Positions 28,017 through 41,916 of a stretch of DNA of 64,000 nt are shown piece after piece; positions within the stretch are counted from its first letter, which is position 1; the number at the start of each line of letters is the position of its first letter. A program made the translations under genes and the position numbers. This stretch comes from Rhizophagus irregularis (lineage: Eukaryota > Glomeromycota > Glomeromycetes > Glomerales > Glomeraceae), in the NCBI RefSeq assembly GCF_026210795.1, contig NC_089444.1, positions 3,896,501 through 3,960,500 of the forward strand. Direction: 5' to 3'. Under the pieces are notes generated by a model that made no database searches, was not told the DNA's origin, and saw only the letters and a list, made by a program, of their open reading frames with translations.

Positions 28017-28030
28017 CCCTATGAAAAAAG
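28017..28030 (+). repeat. Left terminal inverted repeat of the CACTA-class element
   Basis: CCCTATGAAAAAAG, identical to the reverse complement of 41903-41916. Confidence 0.8.
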
Positions 28031-28194
28031 CCTGTGTGATTTTTGTTGAAAAAACATCCAATTAAATTCACTATGATTTCTGTATATTTGACCATACAAT
28101 AATTGTGCTAAAAATTGCAATAAATCACACAATAGTTGTATGGCAATCATACAATAATCATCCAATTTATGACCTGATTTTATATAATTATTGT

Positions 28195-28412
28195 CTAATT
28201 TTTGAGCCAAATTTTGGGCCGAATTTTAGGAATTATTCTGGGCCGAATTTAGAAATTATTGTGAGCCGAATTTTAGGAATTATTAGGAATTATTATGGCC
28301 GAATTTAGGAATTATTGTGGGCCGAATTATTAAGAATTATTATGGCAAATTTAGGAATTATTGTAAGCCGAATTTAGGAATTATTGTGGGCCGAATTTTA
28401 GGAATTATGATT
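28195..28412. repeat. Left subterminal tandem repeats, about nine copies of a 22-26-bp unit
   Basis: The unit is GGCCGAATTTAGGAATTATTG with small indels. Subterminal short repeats are the transposase- or TnpA-binding regions in CACTA elements. Similarity of position suggests the same role here (inference). Confidence 0.75.
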
Positions 28413-28639
28413 ACAGTAAGTTAAAATTTGGTCAGTAACGATTAACGACAAGCAAATTTATAAAGTGAAATTATGGATTTTTATTAATTTAATATACAAA
28501 ATAAAACACTATATTTGATATGAATTATAAATGTAGAAAACTATAAAAAAATATAAATATATATATATAATAATTCATAAATAATATACTATCGCTGTAT
28601 TAGATATAAACTATAAATTAAAACTATAAATGTATAAAG

Positions 28640-29440
28640 AAAATAAAATCAAATATTAAAGAAAGTAAAGTAAATTATTGGTATAAGTAAATTATTAATA
28701 TTAAAAATAAAAAAGTATGAAGTTAGTAAAGAAAGCAAAATTAGAATTAGTAAGTAGTATGGAAAGTAAATTGTTAGCATTTGTTAGCGTTAGTAATAAT
28801 AAAAAAAAAGAAAGTAAAATAAATTATTGTAAGTAAATTATTAATATTAAAAATAAAAAAGTATGAAGTTAATAAAGAAAGCAAATTAGTAAGTAGTATG
28901 GAAAGTAATTGTTAGCGTTTGTTAGCGTTAGTAATAATAAAAAAAAGTATAAAGTTAGTGAAAAAAGCAAGTTAGTAATTGAAATGTAAAAAAGTTAGAA
29001 AATAAATAAAAGGATAAAAAAAAATAAATTTTCTTACCGAAAAGAAAGTTTGAAGAAAAAAAGTTTGAAGAAAAGAAAGTTTGAAGAAAAGAAAGTTTGA
29101 AGAAAAAAAGTTTGAAGAAAAAAAAGGTTAAAAAAAATAAACAAATATTTTCTGCGTAGTGAAAAAAGTAAGTTAGTAATGTAAAAAAGTTAAAAAATAA
29201 ATTCTGCGTAGTGAAAAAAGTAAGTTAGTAATGTAAAAAAGTTAAAAAATAAATAAACGAAAAGAAAAGTTTGAAGAAAAAAGAAAAAAAGTTTGAAGAA
29301 ATAAAAAAATAAACAAATATTTTCTGCGTTATATTTATTATTTATTTTGATGATCAGATCACGTGGTATAATATAATTTAATTTTAATTGGACGATCAGA
29401 TCACGTGTATTATATACATAATTTTAATTGGACAATTTCT
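28640..29440. repeat. Low-complexity and tandem duplications inside the element
   Basis: A ~160-bp segment (AGTAAATTATTAATATT...TTAGCGTTAGTAATAAT) occurs twice at 28660-28960. GAAAGTTTGAAGAAAA recurs about six times at 29040-29130 and again near 29270. A CTGCGTAGTGAAAAAAGTAA block occurs twice at 29150-29250. GATCAGATCACGTG with TTTTAATTGGAC occurs twice at 29350-29430. No gene was recognised in 28.4-29.7 kb. Confidence 0.75.
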
Positions 29441-38667: not shown

Positions 38668-40078
38668 ATGAATACCAATAATTATAATAATAATAATAAT
38701 AATAATAATAATAATAATAATAATAATAATAATAATAATAATAATAATAATAATAATAATATTCTATTTGCTCATCAAACAACAATGCAGGAGTTTAAAG
38801 AAGGAACTAACTCTATTCATAAAACGACGCTTAACGCGCTTATTAATAACTTGCAGTAAGTAAAATAATTAATAAAAGAAATAAATAAAGTAAAAAAATA
38901 GATAAATAAATAAATAAATAAAAGAAAAATCTTTAATTATAATCTTATAATCTTAAAATACATTTTTTGTTTTTTTGACGACTTGTAATAAACAGACCAC
39001 CAGTATTTGGAAGTGGGAGAACTTCTACGTTTAGTTCGTTCGGAGTACCTTCATTTGGAGCACCCTCGTTCGGAGTGCCTTCGTTTGGAGCACCCTCGTT
39101 CGGAGTACCTTCGCCTTCGTTTGGAGCACCCTCGTTCGGAGTACCCTCGTTCGGAGTACCTTCGTTCGGAGTATCCTCGTTCGGAATTGGTAATAAAATT
39201 AATAAAATTTGTTTTTTTATATATATATATATTTAACTTTAAAACAACTTCTATTATATTATTATAGCTGCGGCAAGAGTAGCAACAATAGCAGCAACGA
39301 CCACAGCAGTAACAACAACACCAACACCAACCGCACCAACAACAACAAGTGCACTAATACTAGCTGCACCAACACTACCAACCACATCAACAACCACATC
39401 AACAACCGCATCAACAACCGCATCAACAACACCACCAATACCAACCGCATTAACAACTACATCAACAACCGCATTAACAACCGCATCAACAACCGCATCA
39501 ACAACACCACCAATACCAACCGCATTAACAACTACTGCTGCATCAACCGCAACAACAGCAGCTATTGCAACAACAACAATAGCAGCAGCAACAACAACAA
39601 CATATCACCAGTCATCAATTCCATCATACTGGCCTTTACAGCAGCAGCAGCAGCAACAGCAGCAACAGCAACAGCAACAGCAGCAACAGCAACAGCAGCA
39701 GCAGCAACAGCAACAGCAACAGCAGCAACAGCAGCAACAGCAACAGCAACAGCAACAGCAGCAACAGCAGCAGCAGCAGCAGCAACGGCAGCAGCAACGC
39801 CAGCAGCGTATGCAGCGCCGACAGCGCGAATGTTTTGAATCAACGGGTAATAAAATTTATTAATTTAATGTAAAAGTAAATTTTATAAATTATTTAATAA
39901 TAAAATTTTTAAATTAATAAAAATAGGAGCTGTTTGCTATTATTGTAATGATAATCATTACATCTTCGCTTGTACTCAAATACCGAAAGAGTACAAAGGC
40001 CATTGCGTTAATTGCTGGGCGGACGATCATATGGTTATGAGTTGTAATAATGTTAAAATAAGAGAGCCTTGGCTCTAA
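38668..40078 (+). CDS. PolyN - FG-repeat - polyQ - zinc-knuckle protein of the transposon, 370 aa
   Basis: Exons 38668-38855, 38996-39189, 39268-39846 and 39927-40078 total 1,113 nt with every junction in phase. Domains in order: MNTNNY plus an Asn run; exon 2 with eleven FG dipeptides in units SFGVP / SFGAP, as in FG-nucleoporins; exon 3 Thr/Ala/Pro-rich (TTSTTASTTPPIPTAL type) and then a long Gln run ending RMQRRQRECFEST; exon 4 with two CCHC zinc knuckles (CYYCNDNHYIFAC and CVNCWADDHMVMSC) and the end IREPWL. Only this frame of exon 3 joins the zinc-knuckle exon, so the polyAla and Asn/Ser readings of the same DNA are shadows. The parts suggest an intrinsically disordered, condensate- or nuclear-pore-interacting protein that binds nucleic acid through the knuckles. 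That function is inference. Confidence 0.72.
38678..38760 (+). repeat. AAT trinucleotide microsatellite (coding, polyN)
   Basis: About 27 nearly pure AAT units near the 5' end of the FG-repeat gene. The length is likely variable among strains. Confidence 0.95.
39640..39800 (+). repeat. CAG/CAA repeat (coding, polyQ)
   Basis: A mixed CAG/CAA run of about 50 codons. Interruptions by CAA and CGG keep it from being a pure microsatellite. Confidence 0.9.
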
Positions 40079-41600
40079 ATTTTTTAATTTTTTAACTTTT
40101 TTCTAATCTTTTTAATTTTTTAAGTTAGATTAAAAATTATTTTCTGAATCATGTTATGTTCTCGAACATTTTTCCGATTGGGGTCGGATAATAAAAGATT
40201 AATTAAAATATTCGATTGGGGTCGAATATTTTTCTTTTTCCGATTGGGGTCGGATATTAATCTTTTAAAAAATGTTCGATTACTATTTTTTTTTTGTCCG
40301 ATCGATTGGGGTCGAATTAATTTTTGATTACTATTTTTTTTTGTCCGAGTCGGATTAATTTTTTTTAAAAAACGTTCGATTGGGGTCGAACCAATATAAT
40401 AAAAAAAAATTTTTTTATAAAATTATATATTTATTTTCATATATATTATTTTTAATATTTTTTATTTATTTTTAATATTTTTTATTTATTAATATTATTA
40501 ATTCGCAATTCGTAAAAAAAGTAAACATGAAAAAATTTACATTACATTTATATAATGATCGGTAGGAATAGTAGTGATAATAAAATGCGTTAATATTCGT
40601 TAATACCAATAATTAAATGCGTTAATACTAAGAATCTCTAATCGTTTTAGATCTAAACATGAATAACGACGATACTTGATGTAAAACTTGTTTCTATTAG
40701 TTAGTAAATAGTATGTACATGAGAGGTAACAGCAATCCGAAAGGCGCGTTACTTTATAAACTGGTAAACTTTATAGAATAAAATAACAGCTAAAGGAAAC
40801 GAAAATAATGAGATATTACTAAGGTATACAAGGTATAGGTATCATGTATCATTCAGCGATATTAAAACAGCACCAAGTTATGTATGATAAGTTTATACGA
40901 AGTTTATATCAACGACGAAGTTTAATTTTCTAGATCTTTTATTAAAAATTGGAATAATAATGAATTTCTAAGTATTTTTCTATTTATTATTTTATTTAAG
41001 AATTTTTTTTATAATAAAACTTGCTTAGTAATACAGTATATAATAAAATCAATAAAATCAATAAAATAAGTTTCATATTGCATAAAAAATTTTTTTATTT
41101 AATTAAATTTTTTTATTTAATTAATTATATTAATACAGTATATTTATTATAAAAGATTATTAAGGAAAGGTAAAAAAATTAAGTAAATTTAGAATGTGAC
41201 GAAGGTGGATAAGGAAATAACGCGAGCGTGATGGTAGTTGCAGATGGTATGTGTATATGGTGGCGGCGGCGGTTATTGTGGTGGAGGAGGAAGTAATTGT
41301 AGTAAAGGAAGTGATCGAAAAAGTAATTATAGAGACGGAAAAGGTAATCGTGATGAAGCGATTATTGTGATGTTTGCAGATATTTTCGGTTTTACTATAA
41401 TATAAAAACTTGATACACGATTATAATATGGTTGAATTACGGTTAAATGGGTTAAATGATATTAAATGTATATTATAGAAACGCGGTTCTGTTATAATAA
41501 AATAACTTGATCGCTAATATTATTATAAATTATAAGTTAATTTAAAATAAATACATTGTAGGTAAACAGTCATATATATTACTTTTTAAATACATTCACA
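40079..41600. other. Non-coding right part of the CACTA-class element
   Basis: No gene was recognised. A cluster of palindromic repeats is at 40176-40395 (separate entry). A purine-rich GGTGG/GGAGG stretch lies at 41250-41360. Confidence 0.5.
40176..40395. repeat. Five dispersed copies of a palindromic TTCGATTGGGGTCGAA-type motif
   Basis: Copies alternate between TTCGA-TTGGGG-TCGAA and TCCGA-TTGGGG-TCGGA, so sequence changes in one arm are matched in the other arm. That compensatory pattern implies the pairing matters. They lie just 3' of the FG-repeat gene. Confidence 0.8.
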
Positions 41601-41902
41601 ATTCACAATTAAAGTAAAATGATCTCCCATCGTACAATTGTAACGATTGTACTAAAATAAACGTATATTTCGTATATTTTCAAATATTGTACAATAATCG
41701 CACAATTTTTATATCCTAAACTTTTATTGCACAAAAGTTGAACGTTTTCTGTATACTTAATTTAAGTTTATTTTCAATTGTACAAAGATCGCACATTTTC
41801 AATACACTATAAAATCGACATGGCCATTTTTATCCAAAAAACTGCAATAATTGTATGATTTCCGCACGGACTTGAACAAATATTGCACAAAAATTGGATG
41901 AT
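41600..41902. repeat. Right subterminal repeats of the CACTA-class element
   Basis: Motifs of the form TTGTACAATAATCGCACAAT and ATTGCACAAAAnTTG recur in both orientations up to the terminal repeat. Related motifs (CATACAATAATTGTGC) occur within 100 bp of the left end. Confidence 0.65.
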
Positions 41903-41916
41903 CTTTTTTCATAGGG
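41903..41916 (-). repeat. Right terminal inverted repeat of the CACTA-class element
   Basis: CTTTTTTCATAGGG, the exact complement of 28017-28030, followed by TTG. Confidence 0.8.

Follow-up and report, generated by a model that had tools for sequence, protein, structure and literature searches.

Cut-and-paste transposons mostly have only one or two genes. Why, then, are four genes found between the ends of a single element in Rhizophagus irregularis, and do all of them belong to it? Our study addresses this question for a 13,900-bp element located at positions 28,017-41,916 of a 64,000-nucleotide stretch of DNA, here called the window (C16:3896501-3960500), which was compared with the whole genome (146.7 Mb, 32 contigs). 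We conclude, with a probability of about 0.86, that the element is a class II transposon that has moved recently, that it belongs to the CMC (CACTA/EnSpm-like) superfamily and that its ends are of the CCC type. This conclusion rests on a Tnp2 transposase, on copies paired by their ends and flanked by 3-bp duplications, on empty sites at paralogous loci, and on four genes that move as a set (designated LYS, TNP, MYB and FG).

Ends, copies and empty sites

As the original prediction had described, the element has perfect 14-bp inverted termini (exact at 28,017-28,030 and 41,903-41,916) and is flanked by a TTG duplication. The features of its ends, in window coordinates, are as follows.

28014..28016, unstranded: left target-site duplication TTG, read from the sequence; one copy is present at the paralogous empty site C1:1291030
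28017..28030, plus strand: left terminal inverted repeat CCCTATGAAAAAAG, from the sequence and the genome-wide end search
28017..28216, plus strand: left subterminal region, with short motifs in common with the right end
28198..28431, plus strand: repeats of about 23 bp, GGCCGAATTTAGGAATTATTGTG-like
41637..41916, minus strand: right subterminal region, with motifs in common with the left end
41903..41916, minus strand: right terminal inverted repeat, CCCTATGAAAAAAG inverted
41917..41919, unstranded: right target-site duplication TTG

Exact matches to the 14-mer number 100 genome-wide (57 + 43), compared with 2 + 2 for a reversed-pattern control. With these first 14 bp excluded, the two ends have 17 9-mers in common, direct and inverted, whereas Markov-resampled sequence gave a mean of 3.3 and attained 17 in 0 of 500 cases; the relatedness of the subterminal motifs, which had been noticed from the window, is therefore confirmed. 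A set of short motifs, picked after inspection of the ends, has 7 occurrences in the leftmost 200 bp and 9 in the rightmost 280 bp, whereas the interior of the element has 0.38 per 240 bp (at most 3 in 55 interior windows).

Genome searches with the left 184 bp identified at least 13 places at 99% identity or more and at least 28 further ones at 90-91%, and the right 277 bp identified at least 12 places at 94% or more; these counts are lower bounds, the best 40 candidates having been scored per end. The ends form 12 left/right pairs, 11 besides the window copy. They were first located by their CCCTATG end, which is present in 12 of 12, and searches with longer end sequences returned the same 12; for the left end at C20:3119777, no right-end partner was found among the best 40 candidates of the longer-end search. 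Five copies, of 13.8-13.9 kb, are near full length; their identity is 99.65-99.78% (31-48 substitutions per pair), and one of these five (C18:279657) has all four genes open. Two further pairs span 14.8 and 17.3 kb, and the remaining five span 27-42 kb and contain nested inserts. All 12 pairs have identical 3-bp flanks (TTG, ATG, TTG, CGA, ATG, TAT, TTG, ATT, TAT, CAT, CAT and AAA), so that the search for further copies by their termini, which the original prediction had proposed, was successful.

The flanks of each copy were also joined with a single copy of the duplication and searched against the genome. A paralogous locus crosses the insertion junction in 10 of the 12 cases (5/6 + 5/6), and these loci are without element DNA rather than missing only a part of it. 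For the window copy the locus is C1:1291030-1291244, at 86% identity, beside further ones at 78-83%. Nine of the ten were aligned: three match exactly through the duplication (C16_3924, C3_3541 and C13_1870), four have a mismatch in or next to the three bases (C8, C16_3232, C2 and C3_1818, the last being the least clear), and two have gaps near the junction (C11 and C18). For C24_2686 (best 40 of 330 candidates scored) and C1_1523 (best 40 of 109), the search yielded no paralogous empty site. The insertion points of C3_3541 and C16_3232 resemble a protein-kinase-like gene family, judged by eye from the flanks, and their paralogues (82-89%) are continuous through the junction.

Non-autonomous relatives of about 1.4 kb have nearly the same ends, with one mismatch on one side. 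Both ends are visible in three of the four that were read, all three with 3-bp duplications, and the fourth (L006) shows one end only. In one place within this short family (L028, 1000-1120), two CCCTATG ends stand back to back, 91 bp apart. A different type of insert, 14.5 kb long with inverted ends of about 465 bp and a higher GC content (0.40), is present in the C13 copy (L033-L034) and the C3 copy (L044-L045); the frames of the C13 insert resemble a chromodomain integrase, a packaging-type ATPase, a helicase and PolB, and by eye it is Maverick-like.

The transposase

The gene models were made by hand with GT..AG introns and are predicted from the sequence. They reproduce the four spliced genes in two divergent pairs reported for the window, in the order LYS(-) TNP(+) / MYB(-) FG(+), that is, as two head-to-head pairs.

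29766..30914, minus strand: LYS, 6 exons, 255 aa, with Lys-rich C-terminal repeats; exons 30914-30834, 30763-30650, 30568-30476, 30402-30318, 30240-30104, 30023-29766
32522..36048, plus strand: TNP, 8 exons, PF02992 at E 2.8e-23, 998 aa in unbroken copies; exons 32522-32892, 32982-33247, 33318-34028, 34112-34441, 34510-34984, 35055-35484, 35569-35685, 35753-36045
36641..37471, minus strand: MYB, 3 exons, 221 aa, with a Myb/SANT-like domain and a polyQ tail; exons 37471-37274, 37193-37094, 37008-36641
38668..40078, plus strand: FG, 4 exons, 370 aa; exons 38668-38855, 38996-39189, 39268-39846, 39927-40078

TNP matches the Tnp2 / Transposase_21 domain PF02992 with 82.7 bits (cut-off 28.6). By eye, it contains DG, GDTPG..CRYC (GDxP..CxxC), HYILH (HxxxH) and FPMER. 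In the accessible part of PMC12730594, the CMC superfamily is recognised by C(2)C and H(3-4)H between the second D and the last E; TNP has both, and the 3-bp duplication of all 12 pairs lies within the 2-5 bp expected for CMC elements. As had been noticed, LYS, MYB and FG are open in the window and the transposase has a doubtful spot: a 1-bp deletion at about 35,852 puts its last exon out of frame. The remaining near full-length copies lack this deletion: three encode 998 aa without a stop, and the fourth (C8) has one stop. When the window copy is compared with five copies that are more divergent, the ratio of nonsynonymous to synonymous divergence (dN/dS) of TNP is 0.22-0.63; the gene has 1-2 internal stops in four of these five. 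A search of PDB sequences with TNP gave 0 matches.

The combination of a 3-bp duplication and a Myb/SANT partner gene is also that of a PIF/Harbinger-type element, and the Harbinger-related Nuwa families have a transposase, a Myb/SANT protein and 3-bp duplications (PMC12730594, accessible part). Their transposase family is, however, unrelated to Tnp2: PF02992 is the only family above the Pfam cut-off in the TNP search, with no Harbinger-type match, and we rejected this classification as very improbable.

Three accessory genes

The three accessory proteins are of the kinds originally proposed: a Lys-rich protein, a Myb/SANT-like protein with polyQ, and a protein with FG repeats and zinc knuckles. 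LYS has a core around HFPxxxGDWA, common to the two relatives that were read, and a repetitive Lys-rich tail. Among the five near full-length copies it is open in four, including the window copy, and it has no internal stops in the five divergent copies; its dN/dS is 0.18-0.33 in four of these and 0.99 in one that has five changes only. Since few changes are present, selection on LYS and TNP is less sharply resolved than on MYB. A KilA-N assignment for LYS was not adopted: its E value of 0.027 is below the cut-off, and neither of two pieces taken from one LYS relative matches it.

MYB is open in all five near full-length copies. Its dN/dS is 0.11-0.22 between the window copy and the five divergent copies, with a synonymous divergence (dS) of 0.51-0.87 in four of them and 0.054 in C2_222. 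Two MYB relatives from the same genome match PF13837 (E 4.8e-10 and 1.7e-7; 40.1 and 32 bits), and a PDB sequence search with MYB returned 0 matches. FG consists of a polyN stretch, SFG(V/A)P repeats, a Thr/Ala-rich region, polyQ and a double zinc-knuckle-like C terminus, in which two CCHC-like knuckles were read by eye (CX2CX3HX4C + CX2CX4HX4C). The two FG relatives that were read resemble it in the pattern of cysteines and histidines and share its terminal EPW. Pfam matches to the low-complexity parts of FG were disregarded.

Co-occurrence of the four genes

All four genes are matched in each of the 12 copies. The MYB match in C11 and C13 is a diverged, frame-broken version, and the FG match in C16_349 comprises the last 24 aa alone because of a run of N; an 859-aa open frame in place of FG in this copy was rejected, being that same run of N. 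Outside the copies, the best matches among the scored candidates (the best 150 of 295 for TNP and 150 of 225 for MYB) were 67% over 92 aa for TNP, 64% over 33 aa for MYB, 49% over 35 aa for LYS and 50% over 32 aa for FG. The expected co-occurrence was thus found, with near matches to the accessory genes confined, among the scored candidates, to the 12 copies. The four genes are co-mobile.

More distant relatives were compared with the Tnp2 loci among the matches listed, after removal of those within the 12 copies and of second fragments of the same gene (MYB 88 to 62, LYS 55 to 6, FG 36 to 24, and 76 to 69 for a 397-aa protein described below). Of the 62 MYB relatives, at least 13 have a Tnp2 locus no more than 8 kb away; all 13 are located downstream of it on its own strand, at least six of them at a distance of 2,033-2,095 bp. 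At least three of six LYS relatives lie 2.2 kb upstream of Tnp2 genes in divergent orientation, and relatives of the FG C-terminal domain are found within 8 kb in at least 6 of 24 cases and within 12 kb in at least 9 of 24. None of 2000 random placements attained these counts (13 for MYB at 8 kb, 3 for LYS at 4 kb, 9 for FG at 12 kb); in these placements some contigs were entered at average size, and repeat clustering and shared family kinship were ignored. The proximity counts overstate independence, given the clustering of repeats and the membership of several matches in a single family; the constant strand and spacing are the stronger argument.

Several observations weigh against a functional role of the accessories in the element. 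The window MYB remains below the cut-off for PF13837 (E 0.0031, 18.3 bits, gathering score 27), and a single-sequence AlphaFold model of its exon 1 is poor (predicted local distance difference test score, pLDDT, 49). Of the five divergent copies, four (C1, C2, C11 and C13) have 1-2 internal stops in MYB, whose exon 1 is frame-broken in C11 and C13, so these four copies of the gene are not intact. FG is largely of low complexity, is open in three of the five near full-length copies (one of the others is frame-shifted and one stopped) and has a dN/dS of 0.33-0.62, which indicates weaker constraint. The listed Tnp2 loci have no FG relative within 4 kb (0/24), and 49 of 62 MYB and 15 of 24 FG relatives are not near any of these loci. 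The orientations of the relatives mostly differ from those of the window element, where MYB is downstream of TNP on the opposite strand instead of the same strand, and FG is downstream of TNP instead of mostly upstream. The FG value for C16_349 (50 codons) is unreliable, and 1-3 internal stops are present in FG in three of the five divergent copies, most of which are partly broken because of stops in MYB, TNP and FG. Judging from these patterns, MYB is clearly protein-coding and under selection despite the stops in divergent copies, and FG is the least certain of the four.

Gene fragments are a known cargo of large CACTA elements, and MYB, LYS and FG might accordingly be host genes trapped between the ends, with no role in transposition. 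The weak constraint on FG, its disruption in two near full-length copies and the many MYB and FG relatives away from listed Tnp2 genes are what such an origin would predict. It is nevertheless difficult to reconcile with the presence of all three genes in 12 of 12 copies and of no near match elsewhere among the scored candidates, with the constant spacing and strand that some relatives hold beside other Tnp2 genes, and with the constraint on MYB across diverged versions. We therefore rejected it as improbable.

Mosaic copies

The copies are not uniform along their length. Identity in 300-bp windows delimits one diverged block:

36050..38416, unstranded: diverged block comprising the MYB gene and the MYB/FG intergenic stretch

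In C11_4902 and C13_1870 this block is 67-88% identical to the window copy per 300-bp window, with flanks mostly at 95-100%. The drop begins at about 36,050, just past the TNP stop, and spans MYB; identity recovers to about 96% at 38,400 and 98-99% at 39,000, near the start of FG, and dips to 90% at the FG polyQ region in C11. C16_349 has the same left breakpoint and the same drop through MYB, behind which it runs into N. Through TNP, the three copies are mostly 98-100% identical to the window copy, some C11 windows being lower (to 88%). MYB dS in the mosaic copies is 0.85-0.87, compared with a TNP dS of 0.013-0.039. A comparable yet different diverged block is present in C1_1523 (MYB dS 0.51).

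The simplest reading suggested by these comparisons is that the MYB block was exchanged between lineages that split long before the current burst. A mutation hot spot or an assembly error could be suspected instead, given that C16_349 is only partly readable, with its run of N directly behind the block, and that the MYB frames are broken in C11 and C13. Either would have had to produce one diverged MYB version at three places (80.6% in exons 1-2 of C11_4902, C13_1870 and C16_349), without an internal stop over the 207 codons compared in C16_349, and with a dN/dS of 0.18-0.22 while TNP in the same copies remained at the low dS given above. We hold this to be improbable.

A sister family and further large elements

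A second element is nested within C1_1523 as a 24,416-bp insert (C1:1527855-1552270) with TGG flanks. Its ends are CCCTATAAAAAATAT; the insert starts with CCCTATAAAAAATATG and finishes in the inverted repeat. Its Tnp2 is 56% identical to TNP over a 106-aa core (34-51% by tblastn segment), with matching DG, GDxP..CxxC, HxxxH and PMER residues read by eye, and it also encodes a 397-aa protein with no Pfam match above cut-off. MYB and FG gave only chance-level matches in this element. A possible LYS-like frame lies head-to-head upstream of its Tnp2; only this layout favours it, since its E value (0.23) is no better than that of a chance FG match (0.29).

The 15-bp sister end has 261 occurrences in the genome and the control has 3. 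Within the first 100 of the places listed, at least three end pairs are 24.4-24.5 kb apart, each with the Tnp2 core and the 397-aa gene; several others are only 5.4-7.3 kb apart and are perhaps non-autonomous. Of the 69 relatives of the 397-aa protein, at least 41 have one of the 63 listed Tnp2 core relatives within 16 kb, and 31 of these 41 are upstream and divergent (chance 0.9, at most 5 in 1000). The sister element contains three arrays of one satellite-like repeat between its gene blocks (2.1-2.9, 10.9-12.0 and 18.6-19.4 kb), which might act as recombination points for module exchange. The window itself has a near match to the sister family's end at 51166-51179 (CCCTATAAAAAAAA). Another Tnp2 family (C3:2842534, C9:3871947, C13:229696, C26:707639, C26:1240840 and C28:737412) has two 397-aa relatives about 8.6-9.3 and 14.4-15.1 kb upstream, with near-identical spacing that suggests a further large multi-gene element.

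The presence of accessory genes beside Tnp2 beyond the window family supports a lineage rather than one odd element. At slightly less than even odds, we propose that large Tnp2 transposons with CCC ends, from 14 to at least 24 kb long, form a diversifying lineage in this genome and resemble small modular genomes, in which a fixed transposase would be combined with interchangeable accessories (Myb/SANT, Lys-rich, FG/zinc-knuckle, the 397-aa orphan family and others), swapped by recombination and needed for the transposition complex or for escape from silencing.

Relation to known systems

The element shares with CACTA / En-Spm transposons the Tnp2 domain, the 3-bp duplication, short terminal repeats and crowded subterminal motifs, and it likely has a separate DNA-binding partner as well. 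It differs in its four genes in two divergent pairs, where Spm is one alternatively spliced unit (PMC1636069, accessible part), and in its ends: the CACTA core is absent and CCCTATG is present in 12 of 12, so a strict CACTA assignment was rejected. Of the class originally assigned, Tnp2 and the 3-bp duplication stand, whereas "CACTA" is wrong as a literal name because the ends are of the CCC type, with Tnp2, as in TRC elements. In the accessible part of PMC1636069, TRC elements (SmTRC1; Tribolium, Aedes) have a Tnp2 domain and ends starting with CCC (CCCTAGTAGC... in Tribolium), but their duplications are of 2 bp, and their description there includes no Myb, Lys-rich or zinc-knuckle accessories. 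The same source already used a Tnp2 sequence of Glomus intraradices (AC156590) in 2006.

In Rhizophagus irregularis, a recent CMC expansion with a manually curated CMC-EnSpm consensus (PMC8647823) and further CMC and Plavaka families (PMC11075540) have been reported; the accessible parts of both describe neither a multi-gene architecture nor CCCTATG ends. The 2024 library retained DNA/TIR (terminal inverted repeat) elements of 1-17 kb (PMC11075540, accessible part), and the 24.4-kb sister would fall outside this range. A Plavaka assignment was rejected, as its ends are TGT..ACA or CATCA..TGATG in the accessible part of PMC12730594. What is already known, as far as these sources extend, are CCC ends with Tnp2 (TRC), Myb partners (Harbinger relatives) and accessory TET genes (fungal superfamilies). 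The suggestion of an undescribed multi-gene lineage is accordingly supported for the accessory genes, which also stand beside other Tnp2 loci, and not for the combination of CCC ends and Tnp2 (PMC1636069, accessible part). Neither a four-gene Tnp2 element nor CCCTATG ends nor accessory exchange was found in open PMC titles and abstract openings, a scope that leaves aside subscription papers, preprints, Repbase and supplements.

Proposed mechanism and implications

TNP, a putative DDE cut-and-paste enzyme, would cut at the CCCTATG ends and reinsert the element with a stagger of 3 bp. The crowded subterminal motifs may serve as binding sites for MYB, and perhaps for the zinc-knuckle protein, and binding there would recruit TNP, by analogy with TNPA/TNPD of maize Spm. 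LYS would be driven from the 1.6-kb stretch common to LYS and TNP, and both FG and LYS could be further transpososome, nuclear-entry or anti-silencing factors. The family of about 1.4 kb is probably mobilised in trans, and recombination in the surrounding regions may make accessory genes exchangeable between lineages.

The accessories could instead serve mainly to counter silencing or evade host defence, for example by favouring an unmethylated or transcribed state, without forming part of a transposition complex. The accessible parts of the sources contain several precedents: R. irregularis methylates its transposons (PMC8647823), TET/JBP dioxygenases on fungal EnSpm, Plavaka and other DNA transposons are thought to allow escape from silencing (PMC12730594), and maize TNPA also reactivates methylated promoters (PMC1636069). 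The sister element, with a different gene instead of a detectable MYB or FG, is what an arms race would produce. Against this, none of the four proteins matched TET/JBP or any other DNA-modifying Pfam family, and MYB resembles a DNA-binding partner and is conserved, not fast evolving. We consider a mainly anti-silencing role unlikely, though less so than the other alternatives discussed here.

As a recently mobile CMC transposon, the element provides a young, multi-copy case of four co-travelling genes, and thus a testable system for the recruitment of helpers by some DNA transposons, in which at least one accessory is under clear purifying selection and has apparently been exchanged between lineages as a block. 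It would also allow some of the many unclassified repeats in arbuscular-mycorrhizal-type genomes to be named, and it leads to the prediction that transposon libraries with size limits would miss the largest members.

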